A program made the position numbers and the translations under genes. 64,000 bases of DNA from an uncultured bacterium (GTDB lineage Bacteria > Atribacterota > Atribacteria > Atribacterales > Caldatribacteriaceae): contig CAKZPS010000021.1 of assembly GCA_937139415.1 (NCBI GenBank), positions 1 to 64,000 on the forward strand, in the 5' to 3' direction. The notes beneath the pieces were generated by a model. It did not search any database. It worked only from the letters and a program-made list of their open reading frames with translations, and was not told the DNA's origin. How positions within the stretch are numbered: position 1 is the first letter of the stretch; every line of letters starts with the position of its first letter. This document shows positions 6,003-31,708 of this stretch, one piece after another.

Positions 6003-6017
6003 TCCCTACTCCACCCC

Positions 6018-7427: not shown

Positions 7428-7436
7428 TTCTCATCA

Positions 7437-8480: not shown

Positions 8481-8485
8481 TTAAT

Positions 8486-9988: not shown

Positions 9989-10009
9989 GCTTCAACTCCT
10001 CCCATAAAC

Positions 10010-11275: not shown

Positions 11276-11289
11276 CCCTTTTTCTCTCC

Positions 11290-12123: not shown

Positions 12124-12138
12124 GCGCTTACTCTCCTT

Positions 12139-13032: not shown

Positions 13033-13061
13033 CCCTTAACGCCCTCCTCGTTGCAGCGAGA

Positions 13062-13095
13062 CCATACCACGGCCAATTTACCGACCGTGGTATGG
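13062..13095 (-). other. Intercistronic hairpin between binding-protein and permease genes
   Basis: CCATACCACGG (13062-13072) pairs perfectly with CCGTGGTATGG (13085-13095) around a 12-base loop. It begins seven bases after the binding-protein stop codon. The minus-strand RNA lacks a U tract after the stem, so it does not look like a full terminator. A role in transcript stabilisation or partial attenuation is inferred. Confidence 0.65.
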
Positions 13096-13101
13096 CATAG
13101 A

Positions 13102-14445: not shown

Positions 14446-14531
14446 AGTTCCCTCCTCCTTTCAAAAAGGTGTAGAAACACTCTCCCTTACTCCTCGTTTT
14501 GGTATGCTTATCTATCACCTCACCTTCTTAT

Positions 14532-15113
14532 TCATTGGAGATTTGCATGTCTCCGATCAAACTTCTCCGCATCTTCACCCCAACGCGCCATCAAAATAAC
14601 AATAAGAGCATAGATGGTCACATACAGGGCGATACCAAACAATGCACCTGAGAGGTTTCCATGACGAACGTCACCGATGTTGCTAAGTTCCACAAAATCG
14701 ACATCGTCATGCTTGACTTTTATCTTGAGAAGTGCGTCACTCAAATTACTCAAGGAAGAATGCGGACAGGAGGTTAACCCTAAAACTTTTCCTCTCAAAG
14801 ATTTGGCTCTCCTCGCCAAAGAAAGTAAAGTACTGGTTTCTCCAGATTGAGAAATGACGATAAGAAGATCTCCTTCCTCAAAAGGTGGGTTGACAATGTC
14901 AAAGACCTGATAGGCTCTCTTTCCGAGGTGGTTAAGTTTCATAGTCAAAACTTGAGCAATCAAGTTACTGTGTCCAATAGCAGCAACAAACACTTTTGGT
15001 GCTGCAGAAATGAGTTCTACCGTTTGTTGCAACCCTTCCTCAGACAGGTCTTGACACATCTTCTCTATATCAGCGTAAAATTCCCGAGCAACCGCAGCAA
15101 TAATCTCTCTCAC
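14532..15113 (-). CDS. SIS-domain sugar-phosphate isomerase-like protein
   Basis: A 193-residue single SIS domain. KVFVAAIGHSNLIAQVLTMK carries the phosphosugar-binding loop, and EGDLLIVISQSGETSTLLSL is the signature SIS motif near residue 85. Length and layout recall 6-phospho-3-hexuloisomerase or phosphoheptose isomerase. The C-terminus differs, with a hydrophobic helix (ALYVTIYALIVILMA). The GTG start overlaps the aldolase stop by one base (TAGTG), so translation is coupled. An aldose-ketose phosphate isomerisation just before or after the aldolase step is the likely job. Confidence 0.82.
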   Translation of the reverse strand: MREIIAAVAREFYADIEKMCQDLSEEGLQQTVELISAAPKVFVAAIGHSNLIAQVLTMKLNHLGKRAYQVFDIVNPPFEEGDLLIVISQSGETSTLLSLARRAKSLRGKVLGLTSCPHSSLSNLSDALLKIKVKHDDVDFVELSNIGDVRHGNLSGALFGIALYVTIYALIVILMARWGEDAEKFDRRHANLQ

Positions 15114-15916
15114 TATGCACCACCCAAGCTCCGATAGAACTCTTCCGCTTCTACAGGTTTCATTCCTCGCTTGACTACCGCGATTAAAACCTCTAAAAAA
15201 GTTTCAGGATGAGTAGCTTGAAAAACATTTCGCCCGAATACGACACCCGCTGCGCCCTTTTGAACTGCCTGGTAGGCAATCTCAAATGCCTCGAGAGGAC
15301 GAGTAGTTTTTGCTCCTCCTAAAGCTAAAACGGGAACTGGCGAAATCTTGGTAAGATAATTAAACTGTTCTATATAAACCGTCTTAATGAGATCTGCGCC
15401 AAATTCTACACAAGCCCTCACCCCTCGAGCTAAGGCTTCAAGATCTCCCTGGTATCGATCAATACCCCCGATGGGGATATACTCTCCGATAAGAGGCACT
15501 CCAAAACGCCGACAATCGGTGAAAGCACGTCCAAAGAGCGAAATATTTGATACATTCGCCTCTTCGCTTCCTCCAAAAACTAACGAGCAAATGACCGCAT
15601 CTGCTCCTAAGCTCAAAGCCTCTTCTACTGAAATCAATATTTCTCCATAACCCTTCTGAAACCCTGGACAGTAGTGGCTTCCCCAATTCACGCGAACAAC
15701 ACAAGCAGGGGCACTTTTAGAGGCAAAAACTTTCTGACAGGCAGACATCATCCCAGGCATTACTAATATGCCGTCAGCCTTCTTAAACTGTTCTATAGCT
15801 TGAGGTAAATCTTCAATCCCCGGAAGTGGCCCTTGGTAACTTCCGTGATCTACTGCCACAATTACCGGCTTATCGTTGGAAAATATTTTTCCAAGCCTAA
15901 TAGCCTTACCACTCAT
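15113..15916 (-). CDS. Class I aldolase of the DhnA/LsrF (DeoC/LacD) family
   Basis: A 267-residue TIM-barrel enzyme. VIVAVDHGSYQGPLPGIEDL opens the barrel, GADLIKTVYIEQF near residue 175 carries the presumed Schiff-base Lys, and VPVLALGGAKT followed by GAAGVVFGRNVFQ forms the phosphate-binding site. This layout is shared by archaeal-type fructose-bisphosphate aldolase and LsrF. In this operon it probably cleaves a phosphorylated ketose or ketoacid made by the kinase. The sugar is unknown. It is coupled to the SIS gene and lies 21 bases after the aminotransferase stop. Confidence 0.87.
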   Translation of the reverse strand: MSGKAIRLGKIFSNDKPVIVAVDHGSYQGPLPGIEDLPQAIEQFKKADGILVMPGMMSACQKVFASKSAPACVVRVNWGSHYCPGFQKGYGEILISVEEALSLGADAVICSLVFGGSEEANVSNISLFGRAFTDCRRFGVPLIGEYIPIGGIDRYQGDLEALARGVRACVEFGADLIKTVYIEQFNYLTKISPVPVLALGGAKTTRPLEAFEIAYQAVQKGAAGVVFGRNVFQATHPETFLEVLIAVVKRGMKPVEAEEFYRSLGGA

Positions 15917-15937
15917 ATTTTCTACTCCTTTCCGAGG

Positions 15938-17248
15938 TTAAACTCTATTTCTGTCATAATGGCGAATGTATTTCTCAAACACTTCAAGCACTTTATCCGC
16001 CTGTTCCTGAGTGATCACCAGCGGAGGTTTAATCTTCAAAACATTACCCTGTCCCTTGAACCGACTGTGTCCAAAAATAACGCCATCCTCAATGGCCTCT
16101 TCCACAATTCGATTGGCGATGACGTTCGCGGGTTCCTTGGTCCCTCGATCCTTTACCAACTCTATGCCGATCATGAGTCCCGGACCTCTGACATCACCAA
16201 TAATTTCATAATCTTTCTGCATTCTTTTGAGGTGCATAGTGATATATTGACCTATTTTTTGTGCTCTTTGAGGAAGGTTTTCCTCAATGAGCACATCAAG
16301 AGTCGCACAAGCAGTGGCAAAAGAAAGAGGGAAATGAGAAAAAGTAAAAGAATCAGTCGCTGGAGGAAAAGGTTTCAATTTTTTACTGGCAATAACACCG
16401 GCCAACGGATAACCACCGGCAATAGCTTTTCCAAAGGTCAACATGTCAGGCAAGGCGTTATACATCTCACAAGCAAACATGGCACCCAACCGTCCAAAAG
16501 CAGTCTGAATTTCATCATAGATAAGGAGAATCCCATACTTGTCGCATAATTCTCGAATCTTCGGTAAGTACCCTTGGGGATACTCGATCATGCCTCCTGA
16601 GCCAGGCATTGGTTCCATAAAAATGGCGTATGCTGGTTCGTTGACATGAATCATGTTCTCTAAAAATTTGACGCACTCAAAATCACATGCAGGATAGGTT
16701 CGATGAAAATAGCAACGATAACAATAAGCTTCGGGAAAACGAATAAAATGGTTCATAAATAACTTAAACGGAGCACTCACCTCTGGATCCACATAACTGG
16801 CAGCAATGGTTGCTAAAGTTCTCCCCGAATAATTGCTATAGGGGACGAAGAATTTCATTCCTTCAGGCTTATTCACCATAGCTAACTTCATTGCTCCTTC
16901 ATTAGCTACTGATCCGTGAAGACAGAAACTGATTTGTTTTAAATCGCCAGGACTTATTTCTCCAAGCTTTTTCAGCAATACCAGCTTCGGAATAGTCTCA
17001 AAACTGGTACGCACATGGGTGATCTTTTGAGCTTGCTCAATAGCAGCCTGTACCACTCTCGGGTGGTTGAAACCGATGTTGTAGGTCCACGCCTGTGAGG
17101 TACAGTCAATGTACTCCTTTCCTTCACGGTCAACAACAACTGCCCCATAACCACTCTCGATGATTATAGGCAGTTTGCCACCAACTGATCCTGACATCAA
17201 ATACTTTCGACCTTCCTCTAAATCTTGCGCAGTAATATTTTCGAACAT
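15938..17248 (-). CDS. Class III (PLP-dependent) aminotransferase
   Basis: About 436 residues. The ATG at 17248 has AGAGGTGAT upstream; a longer frame to 17329 adds only a hydrophobic AT-rich leader. Family marks are VVVDREGKEYIDCTSQAWTY near residue 35, AIFMEPMPGSGGMIEYPQGY, ILLIYDEIQTAFGRLG (PLP-ring Asp) and LTFGKAIAGGYPLAGVI, whose Lys forms the internal aldimine. It resembles 4-aminobutyrate and 2,2-dialkylglycine type aminotransferases. A four-Cys cluster CYRCYFHRTYPACDFEC near residue 185 is notable and may bind metal. Nearby gdhA could recycle 2-oxoglutarate and glutamate. Confidence 0.9.
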   Translation of the reverse strand: MFENITAQDLEEGRKYLMSGSVGGKLPIIIESGYGAVVVDREGKEYIDCTSQAWTYNIGFNHPRVVQAAIEQAQKITHVRTSFETIPKLVLLKKLGEISPGDLKQISFCLHGSVANEGAMKLAMVNKPEGMKFFVPYSNYSGRTLATIAASYVDPEVSAPFKLFMNHFIRFPEAYCYRCYFHRTYPACDFECVKFLENMIHVNEPAYAIFMEPMPGSGGMIEYPQGYLPKIRELCDKYGILLIYDEIQTAFGRLGAMFACEMYNALPDMLTFGKAIAGGYPLAGVIASKKLKPFPPATDSFTFSHFPLSFATACATLDVLIEENLPQRAQKIGQYITMHLKRMQKDYEIIGDVRGPGLMIGIELVKDRGTKEPANVIANRIVEEAIEDGVIFGHSRFKGQGNVLKIKPPLVITQEQADKVLEVFEKYIRHYDRNRV

Positions 17249-17267
17249 CGATATCACCTCTTTTAAG

Positions 17268-17273
17268 ATTATA
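17268..17273 (-). promoter_or_regulatory. Candidate -10 element for the aminotransferase operon
   Basis: The 77-base gap between the alcohol dehydrogenase and aminotransferase genes is extremely AT-rich and carries a perfect TATAAT on the minus strand, 19 bases before the ATG. No good -35 is present 16-18 bases upstream (AT-rich only), so this may be a weak or activator-dependent internal promoter. Confidence 0.4.
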
Positions 17274-17325
17274 ACAAAAATAGATAAAAGAAAAATATCG
17301 TAAAAAATAAAAAAATAGAAATTCT

Positions 17326-18372
17326 TCACTCCGCTACCAAAACCACTTTTAAGCCCTCTTTTTTAACGGCTACTCCCATTGCATCGAGCACTCTATCGAG
17401 CGAGAATCGATGGGTAACAAAACGTTCTAAACCTAAATAGGGTGACCATTGAACCGCTCTATAGAAATCTTCAAGCGTAGCATCAATACTTCCAATCACA
17501 TTGACTTCTCGGTAATGAATAAAATTGGGGTCAAGCGAGAGGGTGTTACCAGCAGGCAATCCTCCAAAAATTAAGACCGTCCCACCCTTGCGAACTAATT
17601 GTAACGCGTACTCAATGGAAGACACTGTCGGCGCAGCAGTAATAACCAAGGAAGCACCATTATTCCCAAGTATTTGGAGGACTTGTTTTCTCCATTCACT
17701 ATCACTCGCGTTTACCACAAAATCGGCACCAAACTTCTGAGCATCCCTTAAACGTTGAGGAATAAAATCAATCAATCCTACCATCCCCGCCCCCATTTTT
17801 TTACTAACCAATAAATGCACGAGTCCAATAGGACCTGCACCAAAAATAACTACCTTATCACCAGGTTTCAAACCTGCTCTCCGCTGTCCATGAAGGCAAC
17901 AACTTACCACTTCAATGAGCGTTCCAGCCTCGTCAGACAAGCTTGAGGGTAAGGGAACTAAAACCCCCCTCTCTACTCCTTTTTCAGGAATGAGCATATA
18001 CTCTGCATATCCACCATCCAAGGTACATCCAAAAACAACCACCTCATCACAAAGGTTCTCCAAACCCAAAAGGCAAAACTCGCATCTCCCACAGCCATAA
18101 ATAGGAGCTACTACAACTCTTTCTCCCAGTTGCAGTTGTTGTACCCTCGAACCCATTGCCACAACTTCTCCGGTAACTTCGTGACCGAAGATAATCGGTA
18201 TCTTGTATCTCTCTTCTATACCGTTAACATAACTTCGCACATCCGAACCACAGATACCAGAAGCCCTCACCTTAAGGAGCACATCGCCTTCACCCACTTG
18301 AGGAATATCCACAGTTTCTAAGCGCATATCCCGCTTCTCACCATAAAAAAGAGCTGCTTTCATTTTGTTCAA
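17326..18372 (-). CDS. Zinc-dependent medium-chain alcohol/polyol dehydrogenase
   Basis: A 348-residue MDR-family enzyme. GICGSDVRSYVNG carries the catalytic-zinc Cys, IIFGHEVTGEV the GHE motif, and CGRCEFCLLGLENLC the four structural-zinc Cys residues. The NAD-binding fold has VVIFGAGPIGLVHLLVS near residue 172. It resembles sorbitol, threonine and L-iditol dehydrogenases and would oxidise a polyol to a ketose. The TTG start at 18372 has GAGGGGTGA upstream; an ATG three codons in is the alternative. It lies 13 bases downstream of gdhA, so it is probably cotranscribed. Confidence 0.92.
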   Translation of the reverse strand: MNKMKAALFYGEKRDMRLETVDIPQVGEGDVLLKVRASGICGSDVRSYVNGIEERYKIPIIFGHEVTGEVVAMGSRVQQLQLGERVVVAPIYGCGRCEFCLLGLENLCDEVVVFGCTLDGGYAEYMLIPEKGVERGVLVPLPSSLSDEAGTLIEVVSCCLHGQRRAGLKPGDKVVIFGAGPIGLVHLLVSKKMGAGMVGLIDFIPQRLRDAQKFGADFVVNASDSEWRKQVLQILGNNGASLVITAAPTVSSIEYALQLVRKGGTVLIFGGLPAGNTLSLDPNFIHYREVNVIGSIDATLEDFYRAVQWSPYLGLERFVTHRFSLDRVLDAMGVAVKKEGLKVVLVAE

Positions 18373-18385
18373 ATTTTCTCACCCC

Positions 18386-19648
18386 TCACGGATAAATTCC
18401 TCTCACCTTGATGGCCTCTCCAATACGCTCAATGGCAACAAGGTAAGCCGCCTCTCGCAGAGAGAGGTCATGGTGTCTCGCTAAGGAAAAGCACTGTTTG
18501 AAGCTATTACTCATGATGAGCTTGAGACGTAGGTTGACCTCTTCTTCGTTCCAGAAGAAAGACTGTAAACCTTGAACCCATTCAAAATAGGACACCACCA
18601 CTCCTCCGGCATTGGCTAAGATGTCCGGGACCAAGGTGATACCCTTCTCCTGCAAGACTCGATCCCCTTCTTCAGTGGTCGGTCCATTGGCTCCTTCTAC
18701 CACAAGCTTACAGTGCAAACGTTGAGCGGTCTCTTCATCAATCTGGTTCTCTAAGGCAGCGGGGATGAAGATGTCACTGGGGATATCGAAGATGGCTTCA
18801 CGGGGAATGGTTTCTCCCTGGGAGAAATGGGCTACGGTTTTCTCCTTCTCGACATGCTCGCGCAGGGCTCTCACCTCTAACCCCTCCTCGTTCACTACTC
18901 CTCCTCCGAGATCGGCCACGGCGATAATCTTACAGCCATACTCTTCCTGGAGAATCTTCGCCGCTGGGTATCCTACTTTACCGAATCCCTGTACGACCAC
19001 CCGTGCTCCGCGAAGAGGGAGCTTCATTTCCTGGGTAATGAAGTAGGTGAGGTAGGCGACTCCCCTCCCGGTAGCCTCTTGTCTCCCTTGGGAGCCACCG
19101 ATGATTAAGGGTTTTCCGGTCACCACCGAGAGCACCGAATACCCCTTGTGCATACTGTAGGTATCCATGAACCAGGACATCACCTGGGCATCGGTGTTCA
19201 CATCGGGAGCAGGGATATCGGTCTCCGGTCCAAGGAGAATACTGATCTCGGTGGCGAAGCGGCGGGTGAGGTTCTCTAACTCCCGGGGGGAGAGTTGGTG
19301 GGGATCGCACACCACTCCCCCTTTCGCTCCTCCGAAGGGAATGTTCACCACTGCACACTTCAAGGTCATGAGCATGGCCAAGGCCTGAATCTCATCTAAA
19401 TTCACCTCGGGATGGTAGCGGATACCTCCTTTGGCTGGACCACGGATGATGTTGTGGTGGACTCGATACCCTTGGAAGACCTGGATATCTCCGCTATCCA
19501 TCTTCACCGGGAAGGAAACGATGAGTTCTCGCTGACAGCTCTTCAATAAACTGCAGAGGTAAGGTTCTACGGCTAAGAATGCACAGGCCCGCTCGATACG
19601 TTGGTGCATCTCGGTGAGGAGTGGGGAGACACAAACTTCCTGAACCAT
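18386..19648 (-). CDS. gdhA: Glutamate dehydrogenase
   Basis: A 420-residue hexameric-type glutamate dehydrogenase that interconverts glutamate and 2-oxoglutarate plus ammonia. Clear marks are GPAKGGIRYHPEV near residue 75, IPFGGAKGGVVCDP with the catalytic Lys near 105, PAPDVNTDAQVMSWFMD, and the nucleotide fold VVVQGFGKVGYPAAKIL near residue 215. Length is usual for the family. By eye the gene is richer in G and C than its neighbours, consistent with high expression. A strong sigma-70-type promoter lies just upstream. It heads the minus-strand gene train that includes a polyol dehydrogenase and an aminotransferase. Confidence 0.97.
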   Translation of the reverse strand: MVQEVCVSPLLTEMHQRIERACAFLAVEPYLCSLLKSCQRELIVSFPVKMDSGDIQVFQGYRVHHNIIRGPAKGGIRYHPEVNLDEIQALAMLMTLKCAVVNIPFGGAKGGVVCDPHQLSPRELENLTRRFATEISILLGPETDIPAPDVNTDAQVMSWFMDTYSMHKGYSVLSVVTGKPLIIGGSQGRQEATGRGVAYLTYFITQEMKLPLRGARVVVQGFGKVGYPAAKILQEEYGCKIIAVADLGGGVVNEEGLEVRALREHVEKEKTVAHFSQGETIPREAIFDIPSDIFIPAALENQIDEETAQRLHCKLVVEGANGPTTEEGDRVLQEKGITLVPDILANAGGVVVSYFEWVQGLQSFFWNEEEVNLRLKLIMSNSFKQCFSLARHHDLSLREAAYLVAIERIGEAIKVRGIYP

Positions 19649-19719
19649 ACATCTCTCCCTCCTTTCGTTTTAATTTTTTTAAAATCATTTATTTTCTTTT
19701 GATTTCGTTTTACACCTCT

Positions 19720-19747
19720 ATTATAATGCTCCACTCAATTTTGTCAA
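19720..19747 (-). promoter_or_regulatory. Strong sigma-70-type promoter of gdhA
   Basis: On the minus strand TTGACA (19742-19747) is followed by a 16-base spacer and a perfect TATAAT (19720-19725). Transcription would start near 19713, leaving a leader of about 64 bases before the gdhA ATG. Both hexamers match the consensus exactly. Confidence 0.8.
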
Positions 19748-19842: not shown

Positions 19843-20604
19843 ATGTTTCCGGAGGAAAGAGAAGTTCACATTTTAAACCTCTTGCGAGAAAATGGGAGAA
19901 TTGAAGTAAAAGAACTCAGCAATTTGCTCAACGTATCCGAAGTTACCATTCGTAATGACTTGACTAAAATGGAAAAAAAGGGTCTTTTGAGGAGAACCCA
20001 TGGTGGTGCTATCCTTGCTAAAGAACGAGAGGCAGAAATTTCTTACCTTCAGCAAATTGCGGTAAGAACCGAACAAAAAAACAAAATTGCCAGAGCTGCC
20101 TGTAAACTCATAACCGATCATGGGAAAATCATCATAGGAACAGGCTCTACCACACTTCAAATGGCCAACCATCTCGGAGACAAAAAAAATCTCACCGTAA
20201 TAACCCCCTCTCTCCCACTTTCTTATCAGCTTTCCCTTTTACCCAACATCTCTATAATCATGACGGGTGGATATTACCGTTCTTCCTCAGGTATTCTCTT
20301 CGGTCCTTTCTTCAAGGAAAACATGGAGAAGATTTTTGTAGAAAAAGCTTTTATTGGTGCTAAAGGCGTTACTGAAGAATATGTAACCGACGCGGACATG
20401 ATCGAAGCAGAAGTGAACACCACGCTTCTTTCCCGGGCGAAGACGAAAGTCCTTCTTGCTGATAGCAGCAAGATCGGCTATTTCGCTTTCGCTATCATTA
20501 CCGGCACTCATGACATCGACATACTGGTTACCGATGCAGAGGCCAATCCTCAAGAATTGGAGAAAATTGCCCGCAAGGGTGTACAGATAATTATCGCTCA
20601 GTAA
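19843..20604 (+). CDS. DeoR-family transcriptional regulator
   Basis: A 253-residue repressor. The N-terminal winged helix-turn-helix reads IEVKELSNLLNVSEVTIRND and LLRRTHGGAIL, the DeoR signature. The C-terminal sugar-phosphate sensor domain contains IIGTGSTTLQMANHL near residue 105 and DADMIEAEVNTTLLSRAKT near 185, as in the family. Such proteins respond to phosphorylated sugars. It is divergent from gdhA and precedes the second sugar operon, so it may control either or both. It is intact, unlike the adjacent IclR gene. Confidence 0.93.
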   Translation: MFPEEREVHILNLLRENGRIEVKELSNLLNVSEVTIRNDLTKMEKKGLLRRTHGGAILAKEREAEISYLQQIAVRTEQKNKIARAACKLITDHGKIIIGTGSTTLQMANHLGDKKNLTVITPSLPLSYQLSLLPNISIIMTGGYYRSSSGILFGPFFKENMEKIFVEKAFIGAKGVTEEYVTDADMIEAEVNTTLLSRAKTKVLLADSSKIGYFAFAIITGTHDIDILVTDAEANPQELEKIARKGVQIIIAQ

Positions 20605-20801: not shown

Positions 20802-21658
20802 ATGACCACTTTAAAAACCACTAACAAAGTTTTCCAAATTTTAGAGTTCCTTATCCTTGAAAAGAGAGCGTTTTCCGGAGGTGAGATTGCTACCATGTTC
20901 CATATACCGGAGAGTACTGTTTATCGTATTCTCGCCACCTTGAGAGCAAAAAAAATACGTTGTTCAAGACAAGCCCAACAAAAGATATAGAATTAGCTAC
21001 GGGTTGCTGAGTATACTTCATGCTCTTTCTTTTGATTTTGTACTCCTTTTCCCAGAAAGTCATCTGATGCTCAAAAAACTAGCCTTTACTACTGGTTTCA
21101 CCGCTTCTCTCTCGATCAAAGAAGAATACGGAGCATATTTTATCGATAGAGTAGAACCGCCCAATAACATTAAGTTGGTCACCCAAATAGGTTCTCCCGT
21201 TCCTCTCCATTCCAGCGCCTCGGGAAAAGTTATCTTAGCTCACCTTGCACCATCAGAACTAGAAATTTTTCTTGCCTTAAATCCACTCGTTCCTCACACC
21301 CCTAAGACCATTACTTCGCGCAACGAGTTAGAGAAAGAATTAGGAGAGGTACGAAAAACAGGTATCGCTTGGGATTTAGAAGAAAACTCAAAAAGGCATT
21401 TTCTGCCTTGGAGCCCCGATATTCTCACCCCAAAGGGATATTCTTGGAGCAATTGCAATTGGAGGACCGCTTTTCTCGTTTGAAGAAACCCAAAAAGAGC
21501 ACTATATCAGTGCTGTCGTACAGACTGCACAATGGCTCACAAGTCAATGTCAGGGGAAACGAGAAAACGCTGAAGAAAGGAGGTGGCAGAAACCTTTTAT
21601 TTATTCACGTTCATTTTCAGATGGGTTTAACAAACTTAAAGAACTTAGGAGGGATTAG
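20802..21658 (+). pseudogene. IclR-family transcriptional regulator broken by two frameshifts
   Basis: The N-terminal helix-turn-helix (AFSGGEIATMFHIPESTVYR) is read from the ATG at 20802. At the A8 run 20948-20955 the frame must change to continue as YVVQDKPNKRYRISYGLL and the sensor domain (YGAYFIDRVEPPNNIKLVTQ, PLHSSASGKVILAHL). At the A5 run 21390-21394 it must change again to read GAIAIGGPLFSFEETQKEHY, ending at TAG 21656-21658. Once both shifts are corrected the protein is about 285 residues, near normal for IclR. Either a recent pseudogene or homopolymer sequencing errors. It stops two bases before the binding-protein gene, which it probably regulated. Confidence 0.8.
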
Positions 21659-21660
21659 AA

Positions 21661-22917
21661 ATGAAGAATAAGAGTCTACAAATCGGTATTGTTTTGGTTA
21701 CTGTCTTGGTTCTCATGCTCGCTTCACAAGGTTGGACAGCAACGAGAAGACCAAATCGACCCGATGCAAAAATTGGTAATCCGGTAACTCCCACGGATTT
21801 TCCCGCAAAGTTCCTTCCCGGCATCGAAAAACCAGGGGTAATACCCGAAAAAAAATACTTTATTGCTTTCTCTAATGGTGACATGAACGATCTGTAGAGA
21901 TTAACTTTTGTCAGAGACGTAGAAAATTTTGCCAACCGATACATGGAAGAATTTGGCATCAAATTTATGTGGACCAATGCCGGCCACAATAGTGCCAAGC
22001 AATTAGCCGATATTGAATCACTTCTCGCCTTAAAACCAGACCTTCTCCTTATGTCAGCCAATGAAAGAGAGCCGCTGAATGTGGTTAAAGAAATGTGTGA
22101 CGAGCAAGGAGTTCCCCTCATTATTCTTGACCGAGGAATCGTTTATCAACCGACCGATGACCCGAATGACATGTATATTCAGTCCCAGTCCTTAGACTTC
22201 TTTCTAAACGGTATCGCTATGGGCGTAGCAGTGGTGAAGTTTCTCACTGAAAAGTATGGTGAACCAAAGGGAAACGTAGTCGAACTAGCGGGTATTCTTG
22301 GTTCTGAACCAGGTATCCAGCGTTCTCAAGGAGTTAAGTTTGTGCTTAAAAACTACCCAAATATTCATGTGATTGCTACGAGACCAGCAGAATTCGACCG
22401 AAAAATGGGTTACGAAGCAATGCGTGACCTCTTAGAGACCTATCCTAAGGGGCAGATTGACTGTGTTGTTTGTGGCTGCGACGAGACCGGTTTAGGAGCA
22501 CTACAAGCTATCAAAGAAGCCAAGAGAGATGAGTTAATAGGTTCTCTTATTAGTACGGATGCTATTGTAGAGTATTTAGAAGCTATTGATAAGGGAGAAG
22601 CGTATATGACTACAGAATGCACCCCCTACTTCGGTCTTACCGGCTTCGAGTATGGTATACGATATCTCAACGGTGAAGATATCCCGTCTCGGATTATGTT
22701 GCCACAAAGAGTATATATTCGCGATGGGGATCCTAAAAAAGCCGAATTATTGAAGGCTCATATTCAGTATTGTCGAGAAAATAACCTTAACTTCCCTCCA
22801 TTAGCCTTAGGTGGACAAGATATTTTGTGGCTCCCAGAGTTAGATGAACTTTATCCGAAGCCTTGGTATGAGAATCCCTCGATCTTGGAAGGCCTTGAAC
22901 CATTCACAACCTACTGA
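21661..22917 (+). pseudogene. Sugar ABC transporter substrate-binding protein with an in-frame TAG (nonsense)
   Basis: From ATG 21661, after a good AGGAGG site, the frame gives a signal peptide (KSLQIGIVLVTVLVLMLASQ) and 78 codons before TAG at 21895-21897. The same frame continues without any other interruption to TGA at 22915-22917: RLTFVRDVENFANRYMEEFG, then SLLALKPDLLLMSANEREPL and VEYLEAIDKGEAYMTTE. The context NDL-stop-RL suggests a TGG Trp codon changed to TAG. Restored length is 418 residues, normal for a periplasmic binding protein type 1. Translation from an internal ATG (21943) would lack the signal peptide. The transporter ATPase and both permeases downstream are open. Confidence 0.85.
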
Positions 22918-22981: not shown

Positions 22982-24508
22982 ATGCCACTTTTAGAGATGA
23001 AGAAAATTCAGAAAACCTTTCTCGGCGTCGTGGCTCTCAATGGTGTCGATTTCGATCTTGAAAAAGGAGAAGTACATTGTCTTGTAGGAGAAAATGGAGC
23101 CGGCAAATCTACTTTAGTTAAAATCCTTTCTGGGGCTTATACTGATTACCATGGAGAAATCTTTTTGGACAGTCAGCCGGTTAGAATCGACAATCCTCGA
23201 AAATCCCGTCACTTAGGTATTGCTGCTATCCAACAGCATAGAGACTTAGTTCCCACTTTGAACGCAGTAGAGAATATGTTTCTGGGTCAAGAAATGAAAA
23301 GGGGGAAAACAATACTCTTTCAAAAGGAATATGCTCGAGCCAAAGAAATGATAGCCATTTTTGGGCGCACCATTGATTTAGAAATCCCTGTGTCGTCTCT
23401 TTCAGTGAGCGATCAGGAAATTGTTGCTATATGCAAAGCCTTACTTTCCAACTGCAAGATACTCATTCTGGATGAAACAGCCGCTCCACTGGATCGTCAA
23501 GAACGAGTTATTCTCTTTCAAAAAATCCGTGAGTTGGCCGAAAAAGGCTTGGGCATTATTTACATCTCTCACGACTTAGAAGAGATCTTCGAAGTTGGTG
23601 ATCGCGTGACCGTCCTTAAAGATGGGAGAAAGGTGGGAACAAGAGAAGTCACCAAAACTGATTTAGAAGAGATTGTGAAAATGATGATCGGCACTGAGCA
23701 AAAAAAGCCTACTACTAACAAAGATATCCAAAAATCCATACAACCTATCCTGAGGGTACGTAATCTCACTGTAGAAAAAAGGTTAAAAAATATCTCTTTC
23801 GATCTTTTTGGAGGAGAAATTCTTGGAATATATGGTTTAGCTGGTTCGGGAATTGAATACATTGGTTATGCTCTCTTTGGTGTCGTTCCTAAAAGTAAAA
23901 ACAGCGAAATATACCTACATGAAAACAGAGTAAGACTTGGAAACCCCAAAGAATCTCTTCGAATGGGGATTGCACTCATTCCCGATGACCGAAGAATCAA
24001 AGGATTGGTGAGTACTCGTTCTGTAGGGCAAAATATCGTGTTGCCCCTCATTAATAAAACCAAGCAACGTCTTATACCCTCGCAGTTTGTCTACACCATC
24101 AGCCGAGAGTACATCGAGAAATTACATATTAAAACCCCCTCTTACCTTCAACTCGTTGAATACTTAAGCGGGGGGAACCAACAAAAGGTCTTGGTAGCAA
24201 AAATGTTAGTCACTAACTGCAATGTACTCATTCTCATTGAACCGACGGAAGGTATTGATGTTGGAACTCGGTACGAGCTCTATCAACTCTTTCGTAATCT
24301 ATCTGAAGACACCCATAAAGGGCTCATTCTTATCTCCACAGACCTTGATCAAATTTTAGCCCTTTCCGACCGAATCCTAATACTCTGTAGAGATGGAAAC
24401 TTAAGAGAAGGCTTCCCTCAGGAATGGAATAAACAGGAAATTTTTGAAATGGCCTTGGGGGCAAATTCTGTTAAATACAATAGCAATACAAAGGGTTGTG
24501 AAAAATGA
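22982..24508 (+). CDS. CUT2-family sugar ABC transporter ATP-binding protein with divergent Walker B motifs
   Basis: A 508-residue tandem ATPase. The first domain has an intact Walker A GENGAGKSTLVKILSG and the H-loop IIYISHDLEEIFEVGD. Its Walker B reads ILILDETAAPLD, where family members have DEPTAAL. The second domain keeps the signature LSGGNQQKVLVAKML but has VLILIEPTEGIDVG, with Ile in place of the usual Walker B Asp; the Glu remains. The second Walker A is degenerate, as is normal in the family. The reading frame is open to the permease gene (4-base overlap). Function is plausible but the substitutions may reflect relaxed selection. Confidence 0.9.
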   Translation: MPLLEMKKIQKTFLGVVALNGVDFDLEKGEVHCLVGENGAGKSTLVKILSGAYTDYHGEIFLDSQPVRIDNPRKSRHLGIAAIQQHRDLVPTLNAVENMFLGQEMKRGKTILFQKEYARAKEMIAIFGRTIDLEIPVSSLSVSDQEIVAICKALLSNCKILILDETAAPLDRQERVILFQKIRELAEKGLGIIYISHDLEEIFEVGDRVTVLKDGRKVGTREVTKTDLEEIVKMMIGTEQKKPTTNKDIQKSIQPILRVRNLTVEKRLKNISFDLFGGEILGIYGLAGSGIEYIGYALFGVVPKSKNSEIYLHENRVRLGNPKESLRMGIALIPDDRRIKGLVSTRSVGQNIVLPLINKTKQRLIPSQFVYTISREYIEKLHIKTPSYLQLVEYLSGGNQQKVLVAKMLVTNCNVLILIEPTEGIDVGTRYELYQLFRNLSEDTHKGLILISTDLDQILALSDRILILCRDGNLREGFPQEWNKQEIFEMALGANSVKYNSNTKGCEK

Positions 24509-25485
24509 ATAATGAAAAGATGATTCGACAGATTCGAATGTTTCTCGGTAATTTTAACTTGGTCCCCATATACTTAGCTTTCCTTCTGCTTTTAGCCCTG
24601 ACCACGCCTGAGTTTTTCAATACTTTCAACCTTCGTAGCACGGTAACTTTCTCTTCCATACTCGGTTTCTTAGTGCTCGGTGAAACTATTGTTATCATTA
24701 CCAAGGGGATCGACCTCTCAGTAGGATCCATTGCCAGCCTAAGCACAGTAATCACGGCTGCTCTGATGAAATTCTACGGAAAGGAATTAAACAATGTGCT
24801 GATTTTCGCTCTATGCTTTGCTATTTCCATCTTAGCAGGACTTGGAATAGGAACGATTAATGGGTTTTTTGTATCCTATTGCAAAGTTCCACCTTTCATT
24901 AGCACCTTGGCTGGTCTTCTCATCGGAAGCGGGTTCGCTTTTTTTATCCTTCGAGGTGTACCTACACCACTGGCCATTTCCTCTTTTAGAACCATTGCTC
25001 GAGGAAACTTTCTTATCTTTCCTATACCAATACCATTTTTTTCCCTCCTCATCTTCGGTATAACCTTTTGGTATCTCCTGAGTAGAACGAGTTGGGGGAA
25101 ATATCTCTACGCGGTAGGAGGAAACGAGTACGCTAGTTTTCTCTCCGGCATTGATACCAAAAGAATTATGCTCTCTGCTTACCAAGTTTCGGGCGTCTTG
25201 GCCGCAATCGGAGGAGTAATGTTAGCAGCTCTTTCAAACGCAGGATTTCCCAGAGCAGCTGAGGGTTACGAATTTAGAGCCATCACGGCTGCAGTCATCG
25301 GAGGAGTATCACTTTCTGGCGGGGAAGGAAATCTTTTCAGCGCACTTTTAGGGATATTCATTTTAACCACTCTTGGCAAATCAATCATTTTTTGGCAAAT
25401 ATCTCCCTTTATGGAAGGGATTTTCATTGGAAGTGTGCTTTTGGGGGCTATGTACATTAGTGTGAAAGGAAAGAAGAAAAGATGA
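24505..25485 (+). CDS. CUT2-family sugar ABC transporter permease 1
   Basis: A 326-residue membrane protein of the RbsC family. It has IVIITKGIDLSVGSIASLST near residue 55, KYLYAVGGNEYASFLSGIDT near residue 200 and AAVIGGVSLSGGEGNLFSAL near residue 265. It overlaps the ATPase gene and the second permease gene by four bases on each side (ATGA type), so all three are translationally coupled. Together with the next gene it would form a heterodimeric channel, unlike the single-permease system at 1374-2336. Confidence 0.93.
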   Translation: MNNEKMIRQIRMFLGNFNLVPIYLAFLLLLALTTPEFFNTFNLRSTVTFSSILGFLVLGETIVIITKGIDLSVGSIASLSTVITAALMKFYGKELNNVLIFALCFAISILAGLGIGTINGFFVSYCKVPPFISTLAGLLIGSGFAFFILRGVPTPLAISSFRTIARGNFLIFPIPIPFFSLLIFGITFWYLLSRTSWGKYLYAVGGNEYASFLSGIDTKRIMLSAYQVSGVLAAIGGVMLAALSNAGFPRAAEGYEFRAITAAVIGGVSLSGGEGNLFSALLGIFILTTLGKSIIFWQISPFMEGIFIGSVLLGAMYISVKGKKKR

Positions 25486-26471
25486 AGGTAGAACGAAAAG
25501 AAGAAAGGATAGCCTTAAAAATCATTCTCTATATATTTCGAAATTACAGTGTATACGTAACTTTCTTCCTTATCCTCATCGTCTCAGGTATTGTCAGTAG
25601 AGGAATCTTCATCCGCCCAACGAATCTCTGGGCAGTTATGCTGAGATCGAGTATTCTTGGACTTGTTTCTTTAGGTCAGATGTTAGTGGTCATGACCGGG
25701 GGTATCGATCTTTCTGTAGGCTCTCTCTTCAGTCTTTCGCTCACCATTATGGCTTTGGGAGAATTCACGAGGATAAATCCTTATATTGCTATTATACTTG
25801 CGATTGGTGGGGGTACGATGGTTGGCCTCTTGAATGGAATTATCGTAGTCACCACGAAAATATACCCATTCATTGTCACTTTCGCAACGATGATGATATT
25901 GGAGTCATTCAATCTTACCATTCTCGGAGCAGCAGCTTTTAATTTTCCCACCATTCAAGGAGCACTCCTTAGCATCATGAATTTTCTCCACCTCGATGAA
26001 ACTATTCTTTCAGTAGCTCTATGGGTCATTGCTACCTCCGTTACTTTCTTCATGTGTCGCTACTCAACATTCGGACACAATCTCTATGCCGCGGGTGGGA
26101 ACGAAATAGCCTCCGTATTCTCTGGAGTTAATATCAAAAAAGTCAAAATCCTCAGTTATACGTGCAGTGGTTTCTTGAGCGCGCTTGCTGCAGTTATGGC
26201 AGCATACCGTCTCGGTGGAACTAACGTTGGAGCCGGTTCTGGCTACCAACTCAATTCTATAGCCGCTGTGGTAGTAGGAGGGGTTAGTCTCTATGGAGGT
26301 GTTGGGAATCCCATAGGTGTGGCTATTGGTTCTATAGTCATTGCTATGCTCCTCAACATCATGAATATCCTCAATGTAGATCCTTTTATTCAAAATGCCA
26401 TCCAGGGTCTTATCATTCTCGGCTATGTTGCTTTAAGCAACTACTTACAATGGTTAAGGTTAGAACGCTAA
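25482..26471 (+). CDS. CUT2-family sugar ABC transporter permease 2
   Basis: A 329-residue RbsC-type permease. Family motifs are LVVMTGGIDLSVGSLFSLSL near residue 75, HNLYAAGGNEIASVFSGVNI near 195 and IAAVVVGGVSLYGGVGNPIG near 265. It overlaps permease 1 by four bases and lies 21 bases before the isomerase-like gene. Having two distinct permeases fits systems for larger or unusual monosaccharides, though this alone does not define the substrate. Confidence 0.93.
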   Translation: MKVERKEERIALKIILYIFRNYSVYVTFFLILIVSGIVSRGIFIRPTNLWAVMLRSSILGLVSLGQMLVVMTGGIDLSVGSLFSLSLTIMALGEFTRINPYIAIILAIGGGTMVGLLNGIIVVTTKIYPFIVTFATMMILESFNLTILGAAAFNFPTIQGALLSIMNFLHLDETILSVALWVIATSVTFFMCRYSTFGHNLYAAGGNEIASVFSGVNIKKVKILSYTCSGFLSALAAVMAAYRLGGTNVGAGSGYQLNSIAAVVVGGVSLYGGVGNPIGVAIGSIVIAMLLNIMNILNVDPFIQNAIQGLIILGYVALSNYLQWLRLER

Positions 26472-26492: not shown

Positions 26493-27854
26493 ATGGAAAA
26501 CATGGGCAAAACCAAAGTTGGCATAGTTCATTTGGGATTTTTCGCCTATCCTCGAGAGTATTTAGCCAAGAGAGGACAAGAATGTAAAAATTTATTGGAA
26601 GAGAATGGTTTCGAAGTCGCCTCTGCCCAAATGGTGATCGGCACAGAAGAAGCAGAGAGATGTGTCTCTGAGCTTAAAAAAGTTGACCTAGATCTCCTCA
26701 TTTTGAATTTCCTAAGTTGGACTAATTCCCCACCTGTAATTCACGTGGCGCAAAACTTTAGAGACGTCCCCATTCTCTTATGGGGTATAGGCGGAAGAAC
26801 CGATCCAGACACAGGTAGCTTAGTGTCTCCGGCTGCGGTTGCAGGAATTACTGCGGCTCTGTCTCCCCTTAAGATGATCCACGGAAAGCTCTTCACGGTT
26901 ATTGACGAACCAGATCAACCTACTCAAATTAAGGAAATAAAAAGGATTGGGAATGTTTCCCGAGCGGCTACCCTTCTGTGCAAATCTCGTATCGGTATTG
27001 TAGGATACGCCGATATGGGTCTCTATACCGCCATGTATGAGGGACTCTCGTTGAAGGAAAAAATTGGTGTAGAGGTAGAGGAATTTTCTCTCCTTGAAAT
27101 TACTCAAAAAATGGACAAGATATCAGCAGAAAAGGCACAAAGACTCGTAGACCAAATGAAAGGAGACTGGCAATTTGAAGTCCTTACTGATGAAGCAACG
27201 TTATTGGAAACCGCCAAAATATACTTAGCGTTAGAGGAAAAAATACAGGAAAGAGGATATGATGGTTTGTCGATAAAATGCGTTGAAGGCATGAGTAAAA
27301 TTATGGGTATAACTCCTTGCATTCCTCTCTCGATGCTGGCTGATCAAGTCGTGTCAACTTGTGAATGTGATGTCCCAGGCATGGTTACCGAGCTTATTTT
27401 AAAGTATATTTCGCAAGGGAAAACACCAACTTTCATGGAACACTACGAGATTATTGGAAATCGAATACTCGTAGGCGTTTGTGGTTTTGCCCCCTTTTCT
27501 TGGTGCTATCGTCCTCCACACATTAATCGTTATGGGTGGGGTGGTTTTACCGGTTTAGCTAATACTTCTACGATCAAATCTGAGCAAATTCTTACAGTAG
27601 CACGGTTATCCTCTTTTGGTAACCAATATCGCCTCTTCGTTACAAGAGCGAAATCTTATCCACCACGCCTTTGGGAAGAATTAGGATGGCCTCAACCAGC
27701 CCCTCGATTCCCCAGTCTGGAACTCGAACCAGAGTGTGATATTGAGCATTATCTACAAGAAATTTCAGCACAACATTGTCTCATCATTGAAGGCGACTAT
27801 TGTCAAGATTTAGTCGATTTAGCTTATCTCCTCGACCTTGAGGTGATTCAATGA
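26493..27854 (+). CDS. Fucose/arabinose isomerase-family protein, metal-site His apparently replaced
   Basis: A 453-residue relative of the FucI/AraA superfamily, with GGGAGG upstream of ATG 26493. It shares the superfamily fold marks IVGYADMGLYTAMYEGLSLK near residue 170, VSTCECDVPGMVTELILKY (metal Glu) near 288, and PTFMEHYEIIGNRILVGVCG. The position that is WHCGQAP in the 6018-7427 paralogue reads VGVCGFAP, so a metal-ligand His may be missing. A C-terminal SAQHCLIIEGDYCQD could supply the other His. It overlaps the kinase gene by four bases. Either an isomerase with altered metal chemistry or a partner subunit of the protein at 29355. Confidence 0.78.
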   Translation: MENMGKTKVGIVHLGFFAYPREYLAKRGQECKNLLEENGFEVASAQMVIGTEEAERCVSELKKVDLDLLILNFLSWTNSPPVIHVAQNFRDVPILLWGIGGRTDPDTGSLVSPAAVAGITAALSPLKMIHGKLFTVIDEPDQPTQIKEIKRIGNVSRAATLLCKSRIGIVGYADMGLYTAMYEGLSLKEKIGVEVEEFSLLEITQKMDKISAEKAQRLVDQMKGDWQFEVLTDEATLLETAKIYLALEEKIQERGYDGLSIKCVEGMSKIMGITPCIPLSMLADQVVSTCECDVPGMVTELILKYISQGKTPTFMEHYEIIGNRILVGVCGFAPFSWCYRPPHINRYGWGGFTGLANTSTIKSEQILTVARLSSFGNQYRLFVTRAKSYPPRLWEELGWPQPAPRFPSLELEPECDIEHYLQEISAQHCLIIEGDYCQDLVDLAYLLDLEVIQ

Positions 27855-29371
27855 AATGGTGTATCACTGTCGATATTGGCACCACTGCAACAAAGGTGTC
27901 AGTATTTACAATAGATGGACAATGTGTTTTCTCGACCGCCGAGGAATACTCCTTAGAATTTCCTCAAGAGGAATGGGTAGAAATTAACTTTTATGAATAC
28001 TACAACGCTTTTCGAAGAGGTTGGAAAAAATTCCTCGCGCAAAACAGTATACCACAAGCTGAAGTTACACTCATTTGTACCTCAAGCCAAGGGGAAAGTA
28101 TTGTGGCTGTTGATCGTCAGGGTGAACCACTATCTAACGGTATTGTTTGGCTTGACAATCGAGCCAGAAAGGAAGCCCAAAAACTTTCGAGCATCATTGA
28201 AAACCAGTTTTTTTATCAAAGGACAGGCATTCCTGAAATAGGTCCTAACTGGCCTATTACCAAAATCATGTGGATAAGACAGAATAACCCTGCACTCTAT
28301 GCATCAGCCTATAAATTCCTTCTCGCGGAAGATTTTACACTTTATAAACTCGCTAAGGAGTTCGCTACCAATAAATCTGTGGCTTGTACCACAGGGTTTT
28401 TCGATATTATAATCGAAAATTGGTGGCAGGAGCTTCTCAAAGAGGTTAATATCTCCGCAGACCTACTCCCCAAAATTGTACTACCTGGAAGTGTGATAGG
28501 ACATCTCCATCCTCAAACTGCAAAAGAATTGTCTATTCAGGGAGAATGTTTGGTCGTTTGTGGCGGAATGGACCAAGCTTGTGGAGCCATAGGAGCAGGT
28601 AACTTTATGGAGGGCGTGATTTCAGAAACCACGGGAACAGCATTAGCTGTTGCTGCAACAATTCAAAATCCGCGGTTTGATCTTCCAAATAAAATCCCTT
28701 ACTATTGTCACTCTCTCAAAGAGAGAGTATACCTCGCTCTACCCTATTGTCCCACCTCCGGTATCATTTTAAAATGGTTTAGAGATAACTTTTTTGATTC
28801 CCCCAAAAACTATGAAGAACTAATACAAATGGCCGAGGACATTCCTCCAGGTAGTGAGGGGCTCATCTTGGTCCCGTACTTTGCTGGTTCTCTCAGTCCT
28901 GATTACAATCCAAATGCCAGGGGAATTTTTTTTGGTGCCACCTTATCAACGAAGAGAGCACACTTTGTTAGAAGCATACTCGAGGGCGTGGCCTTCGCTT
29001 TACGTGAAAATGTTGAGCTTATCGAAAGCATGGGAGTAACTACGCAAAGAATCGTGTCGCTCGGTGGAGGAGCGAAAAGCAAAGTCTGGCTCCAGATTAA
29101 AGCTGATGTTTTACAAAGGGATATCTTCAAGCCACATATGGAAGAATCAACCTCCTTGGGTGCCTTTATATTAGGAGCAGTTGCAGTAGGGTATTTTCCT
29201 ACACTTCAGATCGCTTATGAAAGACTCGCAAAAGAGGGAACAATATTCTATCCTCGCAGAAACCACCAAATGGTACATGAGTCTTCTTTTCAAAAGTTTC
29301 GCCAAATATATGCTCGATGCCGAGAAATATTTTTATTAGAGGAGGATGACTTACATGGGACAAAGTCCTAA
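27851..29371 (+). CDS. FGGY-family carbohydrate kinase
   Basis: A 506-residue sugar kinase. It has CITVDIGTTATKVSVFTIDG at the N-terminus, IVWLDNRARKEAQKL near residue 98, VVCGGMDQACGAIGAGNFM near 235 carrying the catalytic Asp, and IVSLGGGAKSKVWLQIKADV near 398. In the catalytic loop Met replaces the usual His of GGHDQ. It is sandwiched between two isomerase-like genes (4-base overlap upstream, 17-base overlap downstream), so it almost certainly acts on their product. Confidence 0.92.
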   Translation: MKWCITVDIGTTATKVSVFTIDGQCVFSTAEEYSLEFPQEEWVEINFYEYYNAFRRGWKKFLAQNSIPQAEVTLICTSSQGESIVAVDRQGEPLSNGIVWLDNRARKEAQKLSSIIENQFFYQRTGIPEIGPNWPITKIMWIRQNNPALYASAYKFLLAEDFTLYKLAKEFATNKSVACTTGFFDIIIENWWQELLKEVNISADLLPKIVLPGSVIGHLHPQTAKELSIQGECLVVCGGMDQACGAIGAGNFMEGVISETTGTALAVAATIQNPRFDLPNKIPYYCHSLKERVYLALPYCPTSGIILKWFRDNFFDSPKNYEELIQMAEDIPPGSEGLILVPYFAGSLSPDYNPNARGIFFGATLSTKRAHFVRSILEGVAFALRENVELIESMGVTTQRIVSLGGGAKSKVWLQIKADVLQRDIFKPHMEESTSLGAFILGAVAVGYFPTLQIAYERLAKEGTIFYPRRNHQMVHESSFQKFRQIYARCREIFLLEEDDLHGTKS

Positions 29372-30749
29372 GATCGGTGTTTTGGTCACCGCGCTCTTAG
29401 AAGATGACTTTAATAAAACAGGGTACCTTCGACCACAAGCACGGGAAGCGGCACAAAAAATTGCTTCCGTTTTTAACTCGATGGGGCAAACCATATTTCC
29501 GGGGTTGGTTGAAGAAGAATGGCAAGCACAACAAGCCGCAGAAACATTTAATCGTGAAATGGTTGACCTCATAGTTTTCACCGAACTTGCTTACACAAAG
29601 GGTATCGTCCCACTACGAACCTTTCTATCAACCCACGCACCTATTCTTCTCTGGATTACTCAATTCATTCGATCGTTCCCTGAAAAGGCTGATTTTGACC
29701 TCGTAATGCTGAATTCGGGCATGTGTGGATTACCCGAAATCGGACAACTTCTTCAGCGGATTGGCAGAACCTTCTTTGTCGTCTCTGGTCACTTCGAGGA
29801 CCCTAAGGTACACCAATCACTCAAAGAATGGATAGATGCTCTTAAAGTGAAAAGAACGCTCCAAGAGCCTAAAATAGGGACTATTGGTCATCCTTTTGAA
29901 GGGATGGCGGATTTACGACTAGACGAAATATCTCTCCGCAAGTTTCTGGGACCAGTATGCTGGCCAGTAGAACACGAAGTGATTCCGCAGATCATGTCCA
30001 CCATCGACGAAAAAAGCGCTAGAAGTTTAATTTTAGAAGAAGAGCGCGCCTACGGTGGCATAGAAGTCCCCGAAGAAACCATGTTAAGATCGGCAAAATT
30101 AGCCCTGGCCTTGGAAAAAATGGTAGAGGAAAAAAATCTTAGTGCAGTAGCCCTTTTCGACCAAATATGGCTTGATGATCCTCGAGTAGGGATCATACCT
30201 TCCTATGGTACCTCCCGTATGGTAAGCAAAGGCATTCCTTTCACCTGCGAAATGGATATTGCTCAGGCAGTTTCCATGATTATATGCAACTCCCTTACCG
30301 GCTCTTCTACCTTCTTAGAAAACTATGTCATAGACTTCGAAGAAAATGCTATCATTCTTTCCCACGATGGACATGGTAACCCCGCTTTGGCTACTCACCC
30401 CAAGGAGGTGAAAATCAAACCGAGCATATACTATCGGGGTGTCCACGGTTTCGGCGCTTCTTTCGAATACGCCTACCATCCTGGAAACGTAACTTTACTC
30501 TCTCTCAGTTATTTAGGACAAGACCGATGGAAACTCATCATTTGCGAAGGAGAATCGATACCCATGGCACCAAGACCCATAGTCGCACCACAAATGCTCT
30601 TTCGACCTAAAAATGGTTCAATTGAATCCTATACCAAACTATGGGTACAAGAAGGCGCATCACACCATCACGCTCTTGCATATGGTCATTGGGAATCCGT
30701 TTTGGTCAAAATTGCTTCCCTGTTAGGTGTCGATTATCGAGTGATATGA
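29355..30749 (+). CDS. L-arabinose isomerase-family protein, probable ketol-isomerase
   Basis: About 464 residues. ATG 29355 has GGAGG nine bases upstream; the earlier ATG at 29346 directly abuts that site. AraA-superfamily features include PFTCEMDIAQAVSM (metal Glu) near residue 295, SSTFLENYVIDFEENAIILS, SHDGHGNPALAT (metal His) and a C-terminal EGASHHHALAYGHWE. All four usual metal positions appear to be present, in contrast to the partner at 26493. Classic AraA is about 500 residues. The gene overlaps the kinase gene by 17 bases. It would convert the imported aldose to a ketose. Confidence 0.82.
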   Translation: MGQSPKIGVLVTALLEDDFNKTGYLRPQAREAAQKIASVFNSMGQTIFPGLVEEEWQAQQAAETFNREMVDLIVFTELAYTKGIVPLRTFLSTHAPILLWITQFIRSFPEKADFDLVMLNSGMCGLPEIGQLLQRIGRTFFVVSGHFEDPKVHQSLKEWIDALKVKRTLQEPKIGTIGHPFEGMADLRLDEISLRKFLGPVCWPVEHEVIPQIMSTIDEKSARSLILEEERAYGGIEVPEETMLRSAKLALALEKMVEEKNLSAVALFDQIWLDDPRVGIIPSYGTSRMVSKGIPFTCEMDIAQAVSMIICNSLTGSSTFLENYVIDFEENAIILSHDGHGNPALATHPKEVKIKPSIYYRGVHGFGASFEYAYHPGNVTLLSLSYLGQDRWKLIICEGESIPMAPRPIVAPQMLFRPKNGSIESYTKLWVQEGASHHHALAYGHWESVLVKIASLLGVDYRVI

Positions 30750-30784: not shown

Positions 30785-31708
30785 ATGCTCCAAATTGCAG
30801 AAATTCCCTTCGGGGGTTGGGCGCGGAACTGTCTCATTTCTAATGGCCGCATTGAAGCGGTGGTCACCGAAGAGGTGGGACCTCGGGTTATCCGATTGGC
30901 TTTTGTGGGGAAAACCAATCTTTTCGTAGAGATGTCCGAGGAATTAGGCATCACTGGTGGTAGCGAATGGCACATCTTCGGTGGACATAGGCTCTGGCAT
31001 GCTCCGGAAGTAAATCCTCGCTCCTATTACCCGGACAACGGTCCGGTATCGGTTGAGAAAACCAAAGAGGGTGCGCGTTTCATCCAGGAGATCGAAAAGT
31101 CAACCGGAATTCAAAAAGAGATAGAAATCAAGATGTGGGAAAATGAGAATGCTCTCACCGTGATCCATCGCCTCACCAATCATAATCTCTGGCCCATAGA
31201 GCTCGCCCCCTGGGCTCTCTCTGCTATGGCTAAAGGGGGTATGGCTATTATCCCCCAAGAACCGTACCAAAGCTGGTCAGATAACCTCCTTCCGGTCAGG
31301 CCTCTCGTTCTGTGGGGATACTCCGAGATGGATGATCCTCGCTTCCGCTGGGGGAAGAAATACGTAACCCTGAAGCAGAACCCTCAAGCTTCCTCCCCCA
31401 ACAAAGCCGGTTTCGGGAATAAGCAAGGGTGGGGAGCATACCTCTTAGGGGAATATCTCTTCATTAAGATTGCTTCCTATCGAGAACACGCCGTCTATCC
31501 CGATATGGGCTCTTCGTTTGAACTCTACACCGATCATCGTTTTTTGGAATTAGAATCGTTGGGTCCTCTTTCTCTCTTGCAGCCTCACGGCACAGTAGAA
31601 CACGTGGAGTACTGGTTCCTTTTTGAAGGAGTGACCGCCGAAGACTCCGACGAGAGTATCGACCGAGAAGTACGGCCTCTTGTGGAAAGAGCGATGTCTC
31701 TCATATAA
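30785..31708 (+). CDS. DUF4380 / galactose-mutarotase-like protein
   Basis: About 307 residues. The ATG at 30785 follows GGGAGGAAAGG. The beta-rich protein begins LQIAEIPFGGWARNCLISNG and EEVGPRVIRLAFVGK, with EWHIFGGHRLWHAPE in the first third. This is the layout of DUF4380 proteins of the galactose mutarotase-like fold. A role in anomer interconversion or sugar binding at the end of the sugar operon is inferred. By eye it is richer in G and C than the genes before it and closer to the following housekeeping genes, so it may not share their history. Confidence 0.75.
   Translation: MLQIAEIPFGGWARNCLISNGRIEAVVTEEVGPRVIRLAFVGKTNLFVEMSEELGITGGSEWHIFGGHRLWHAPEVNPRSYYPDNGPVSVEKTKEGARFIQEIEKSTGIQKEIEIKMWENENALTVIHRLTNHNLWPIELAPWALSAMAKGGMAIIPQEPYQSWSDNLLPVRPLVLWGYSEMDDPRFRWGKKYVTLKQNPQASSPNKAGFGNKQGWGAYLLGEYLFIKIASYREHAVYPDMGSSFELYTDHRFLELESLGPLSLLQPHGTVEHVEYWFLFEGVTAEDSDESIDREVRPLVERAMSLI

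Follow-up and report, generated by a model that had tools for sequence, protein, structure and literature searches.

Enzymes of the AraA/FucI superfamily are hexamers, and the N1 domain of L-fucose isomerase (FucI) helps to recognise the substrate in the hexamer (PMC6894278). FucI binds Mn2+ via three residues, Glu337, Asp361 and His528 (PMC6894278), and the active-site residues of L-arabinose isomerase (AraA) are E306, E333, H350 and H450 (PMC11172353, PMC3520711). Two isomerases act in one pathway in sulfo-TK, SqvD first and then SqwI (PMC12890257). The 64,000-nucleotide stretch of Atribacterota DNA analysed here (the window) carries two isomerase genes, ISO1 and ISO2, and a kinase gene, KIN, which resemble these systems in part. 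The AraA/ribulokinase pathway likewise has an isomerase followed by an FGGY kinase, and ISO2 has the predicted fold and the four ligands of AraA; however, the identity is about 20%, far below the AraA equivalog cut-off, and the neighbours of the trio include a class I aldolase instead of any identified AraD-type epimerase. The locus also follows the isomerase, FGGY kinase and aldolase logic of the L-fucose isomerase, fuculokinase and fuculose-1-phosphate aldolase pathway, and ISO1 has a predicted three-ligand FucI site. Nonetheless, FucI is about 590 residues long whereas ISO1 has about 450, the aldolase is of the LsrF/DhnA class I type, and an extra AraA-like isomerase, an aminotransferase and an alcohol dehydrogenase are present.

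Gene organization of the locus

An FGGY kinase gene lies between two unlike isomerase-family genes and overlaps both, as described in an earlier note on this DNA, which had also correctly placed a two-permease CUT2 importer and a mutarotase-like gene nearby. The features are as follows.

14532–15113, minus strand: SIS-domain sugar-phosphate isomerase, HxlB-like below cut-off
15113–15916, minus strand: LsrF/DhnA-type class I aldolase
15938–17329, minus strand: AT3, class III PLP aminotransferase family
17326–18372, minus strand: ADH, zinc alcohol dehydrogenase
18386–19648, minus strand: glutamate dehydrogenase (GDH), first gene of the divergent operon
19699–19727, plus strand: promoter-like site ahead of the DeoR-type gene
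19720–19747, minus strand: promoter-like site ahead of the divergent operon
19843–20604, plus strand: DeoR-type regulator, of a kind also found with the ISO2 operon elsewhere
20802–21570, plus strand: IclR-type regulator remnant, two frameshifts (near 20951 and 21395)
21661–22917, plus strand: CUT2 substrate-binding protein, in-frame TAG at 21895–21897
22982–24508, plus strand: CUT2 sugar ABC importer ATPase
24505–25485, plus strand: CUT2 permease 1
25482–26471, plus strand: CUT2 permease 2
26493–27854, plus strand: ISO1, AraA/FucI-superfamily isomerase with a predicted FucI-type three-ligand metal site
27851–29371, plus strand: KIN, FGGY ketose kinase, XylB-like below cut-off, with Asp241 in a GGMDQ motif
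29355–30749, plus strand: ISO2, AraA-like isomerase with four AraA ligands
30785–31708, plus strand: mutarotase-like protein, TTE1925 family below cut-off

The open reading frames of ISO1 and KIN overlap by 4 nt (27851–27854). ISO2 has two candidate starts, the mechanical ORF start at 29346, from whose ATG the ISO2 residues are numbered here, and an ATG at 29355. The latter is preferred because its ribosome-binding site is better (AGGAGG about 9 nt upstream) and because it agrees with the start of the Chloroflexi homologue; it gives a KIN/ISO2 overlap of 17 nt. ISO1 and ISO2 are homologous and remote, with 23% sequence identity (E=2e-12) and a profile–profile E value of 6e-34. Since related gene sets occur in other genomes, a chance arrangement of the trio is excluded. 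The promoter-like sites ahead of the DeoR-type gene and the divergent operon match at 10/12 and 12/12 (TTGACA-16-TATAAT), respectively, consensus promoters as a class being no commoner than in shuffles.

The earlier proposal of a complete but unnamed sugar route is supported as regards an isomerase–kinase route, which is larger than proposed, but because of the in-frame TAG in the binding-protein gene the route is not intact in this genome. With the binding-protein and IclR genes both broken, the importer-trio cluster may be decaying here; these interruptions are seen in a single assembly, and sequence errors could account for them. The mutarotase-like protein has one relative (36%) beside ISO1-KIN, in locus L112. 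The Chloroflexota loci described below have an epimerase-like gene, but a match between this and the mutarotase-like gene was rejected, the two not being shared.

Metal sites, folds and family assignment

The AlphaFold models of ISO1 (pLDDT 92.7) and ISO2 (pLDDT 89.4) match L-arabinose and L-fucose isomerases over their full length. Foldseek query TM scores are about 0.8–0.88 against AraA, whose fold both models share, and about 0.8 against FucI. The four AraA residues E306, E333, H350 and H450 are kept in ISO2 as E302 (CEMD), E325 (LENY), H340 (LSHDG) and H441 (SHHH). The ISO2 ligand set is thus complete, as the earlier note had it, but the third ligand is H340 of the LSHDG motif and not H343 of GHGNP.

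The corresponding motifs of ISO1 contain E291 (CECD), E316 (FMEHY), V329 (VGVCGFAP) and H428 (AQH), and the AraA set fails at His350, the position of V329. The V329 column holds Val in 35 of 44 ISO1 relatives and His in none. The profile of these 44 relatives aligns E291 with FucI Glu337 and E316 with Asp361 in 1fui, and H428 occupies the His528 position in an alignment to the FucI-family enzyme 3a9r, so that E291, E316 and H428 account for all three FucI metal ligands. The respective columns contain Glu in 44/44, Glu or Asp in 38 and 6, and His in 44/44 relatives. Because FucI uses three ligands and all are kept among the ISO1 relatives, ISO1 carries, on these alignments, a FucI-type metal site. 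A metal-binding His had previously been read as missing from ISO1; V329 does replace the additional AraA ligand, His350, but the three-ligand FucI set is complete. The possibility that ISO1 is a dead subunit was rejected after this comparison. As ISO1 keeps the FucI set and ISO2 all four AraA ligands, neither appears from its residues to be an obvious dead subunit. Nor do the two proteins fit one and the same characterised isomerase with all its ligands, which the earlier note had named as an outcome against its proposal.

ISO1 scores 24.2 bits against AraA (NCBIfam NF002795, cut-off 622) and 22.7 bits against FucI (TIGR01089, cut-off 850), and ISO2 scores 82.5 bits against NF002795. The best NCBIfam family for both is the sulfoquinovose isomerase SftI/SqvD (NF048012), but at 100.4 bits for ISO1 and 93 bits for ISO2 they remain below its cut-off of 700. 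KIN reaches 334.4 bits against XylB (TIGR01312, cut-off 380.25), its best FGGY model, and the mutarotase-like protein 329.5 bits against the TTE1925 mutarotase (NF052227, cut-off 550). Because none of the four attains a curated named-function cut-off, they are given no function name. Sulfoglycolysis was considered in view of the SftI match and rejected on the score and the missing partners; among the neighbours of the trio we recognised no sulfoquinovosidase, sulfolactaldehyde reductase, transaldolase or transketolase.

Occurrence of the two isomerases

A single-sequence ISO1 search of genome contigs returned no relatives and plasmid searches gave distant matches only. An ISO1 profile scan of 84,980 species yielded 47 loci. 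A KIN-like FGGY kinase lies near ISO1 in 23/46 loci and a PfkB kinase in 10/46; counting sugar kinases of any family, the number is 33/46. Clade ISO2 is absent from 41 of 45 ISO1 genomes and present in four, and ISO1-KIN pairs without ISO2 occur in Bacillota and other groups.

ISO2 cassettes were surveyed in 400 Chloroflexota genomes, with gene content taken from tblastn. An LsrF-KIN-ISO2 operon is conserved in all ten Chloroflexota loci (L183–L192) that were found in addition to L087 and G345. ISO1 was not found in these ten genomes, in which the best match to the ISO1 profile is ISO2 itself. This operon resembles the window genes (ISO2 about 50%, KIN 37–39%, aldolase 40–44%, DeoR 28–34% identity) but is without ISO1 and has a CUT1 rather than a CUT2 importer. 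In nine of the ten loci a TIM-like protein and YjbQ follow, replacing the ADH and AT3 that are found in L189; in L185 YjbQ was not seen, and the contig ends there. The LsrF-KIN-ISO2-TIM-YjbQ operon of Chloroflexota was seen in this analysis and is unnamed.

Besides the window, just one genome has both isomerases and the kinase at a common locus, the Chloroflexi MAG RBG_19FT_COMBO_62_14 (L087). There KIN (43%), ISO2 (51%), AT3 (50%) and ISO1 (40%) share a strand, non-adjacent, in a stretch of about 11 kb. In G345, also Chloroflexi, AT3, ISO2, LsrF, DeoR, KIN, SIS and ADH are on one contig and ISO1 is on another. The earlier note had staked its proposal on conservation of the trio elsewhere, and this is half borne out: L087 shares the locus and G345 has it split over two contigs, but only the pairs are widespread. 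Among the members searched of the window's own family the trio is absent, with no close ISO1 or KIN relatives. No publication naming such a gene set was found in the literature searched.

Several further associations were seen. The TIM-like protein and YjbQ (UPF0047) turn up repeatedly next to ISO1-KIN (L111, L112, L113, L116, L118, L123) as well as next to the cassettes of L183–L192. In Verrucomicrobia and others (L098, L100, L104, L106, L107, L110, L120 and more) ISO1 relatives adjoin a PfkB kinase, often together with a relative of the class III aminotransferases and a Ceramidase_alk-like protein, which makes a further candidate pathway. MttB-like or URO-D-like methyltransferase genes lie near isomerases of the superfamily in L165, L166, L043, L045 and L090 and may point to methylated substrates. 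Contigs C16, C32 and C67 of the genome to which the window belongs (G000) hold at least three further AraA/FucI-superfamily isomerases outside the window, two of them adjoining FGGY kinases.

Kinase and ISO1 trees

Most ISO1-paired kinases and all ISO2-paired and both-paired kinases fall into one clade of 29 rows (support 100/96). Outside it are control kinases that score similarly in blast but have neither isomerase, the kinases of the remotest ISO1 relatives and some ISO1-linked FGGY kinases (L126, L128–L131), in a tree whose outgroup sample is small, as kinases were sampled for isomerase proximity or likeness to the window KIN. Long branches were flagged in both the kinase and the ISO1 trees. 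The window KIN and ISO1 each group with the Bacillota loci L088 and L090 (99/96 and 100/96), where ISO1 and KIN are present and clade ISO2 is absent, and the L087 KIN groups with ISO2-only kinases (100/100). On these groupings, the ISO1+ISO2 combination may have arisen twice.

The divergent operon

The GDH-ADH-AT3-LsrF-SIS genes are transcribed away from the trio and not cotranscribed with it. AT3, ADH and LsrF are nonetheless counted with the trio because their best relatives sit in ISO2 cassettes. Relatives of AT3 at 48–51% identity, against 32% for the next best, occur only beside ISO2 (L087, L164, L189). The best relatives of ADH (38–39%, L164 and L189) and LsrF (40–44%, adjoining KIN-ISO2) are also in the L087/L164/L189 cassettes. 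Downstream, with gaps of at most 86 nt, the operon continues to a second isomerase/kinase module. In all, this minus-strand operon (1374–19648) comprises sixteen genes, including the second isomerase (6018–7427), an amidohydrolase (7437–8480), an FGGY kinase (8486–9988), importers of the CUT1 and CUT2 types, Gfo/Idh and a URO-D-like protein. Ardenticatenia loci L168/L169 contain a comparable set together with LsrF and DeoR.

Proposed route and alternative explanations

The reading we favour, as somewhat the more probable, is that ISO1 and ISO2 are separate, competent metal-dependent aldose–ketose isomerases that provide alternative or parallel entries into one kinase–aldolase route. Each would turn an aldose, probably a different one, into a ketose, which the common kinase KIN would convert to a ketose phosphate. 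Cleavage of this by the LsrF-type aldolase of the divergent operon would give a triose phosphate plus an aldehyde. What is left, or a substrate that contains nitrogen, might be handled by ADH, the class III aminotransferase and GDH, with GDH recycling glutamate; this lower part and an amino-sugar substrate are suggested by gene content. The reading is based on the order and homology of the genes, on the ligand residues and predicted folds of the isomerases, on the finding of ISO1 and ISO2 independently of each other with one kinase clade, and on the specific linkage of ISO2-KIN with aldolase, ADH and AT3. From these we infer catalytic activity and its direction, sugar entry at ISO1 or ISO2, the order of steps and the feeding of the same kinase by both isomerases. 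As both isomerases and the kinase share one locus in just one other genome, their co-use could be coincidental.

The subunits of an obligate heteromer would always be found together, but each isomerase is found beside one kinase clade without the other, which is why alternative entries are preferred. The 4 and 17 nt overlaps suggest coupled translation and, with the hexameric state of AraA/FucI enzymes and the role of the FucI N1 domain in substrate recognition (PMC6894278), speak for a mixed ISO1+ISO2 hexamer with shared active sites, a heteromeric isomerase having been one suggestion of the earlier note. However, ten ISO2 genomes are without ISO1 and 41/45 ISO1 genomes without ISO2, each protein has its own metal ligands, and the trees place the window KIN and ISO1 with loci that have ISO1 and KIN but lack ISO2. 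Independent occurrence and separate ligand sets thus make a heteromer very improbable. The same solitary occurrence beside the kinase clade implies that neither isomerase needs the product of the other there, and it renders successive isomerisations a lesser possibility, despite the presence of both genes in one operon with one kinase and the sulfo-TK precedent of SqvD then SqwI (PMC12890257). Under that scheme ISO1 and ISO2 would convert one sugar in turn, an aldose first to a ketose and then to another aldose or ketose, or one would act before the aldolase and the other after it on the released short aldehyde; nothing specific points to such a succession.

It is unlikely that the importer-trio operon is out of use in this genome and the second isomerase a leftover. 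The in-frame TAG, the two IclR frameshifts and the lack of close ISO1 or KIN relatives in the family members searched are consistent with such decay, but ISO1, KIN, ISO2, the ATPase, the permeases and the mutarotase-like gene are intact with conserved ligands, and the breaks, known from one assembly, are possibly sequence errors. That ISO1 is here a related non-isomerase, an epimerase or a regulator-like paralogue, would agree with its scores under every family cut-off and with the prevalence of Val, never His, at the AraA His350 position (35/44). It is highly improbable given FucI-type ligands kept in 44/44 relatives and a sugar kinase nearby in 33/46 loci, at times of another family.

Implications

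Beyond the favoured reading of alternative entries, we tentatively propose an undescribed route in which FucI-type and AraA-type isomerases would be interchangeable at one kinase clade with a class I aldolase, across Atribacterota, Chloroflexota, Bacillota and others. It would have two alternative lower halves, TIM-like protein and YjbQ or ADH and class III aminotransferase, and possibly serves an amino or otherwise modified sugar. The analysis provides a testable, widely conserved sugar gene set in uncultured phyla, consisting of isomerase, kinase and aldolase with either of these pairs, and places YjbQ and the class III aminotransferase repeatedly in the context of a sugar pathway. It also illustrates that a "missing" metal ligand can mark the change from one known type of metal site to another within one superfamily.
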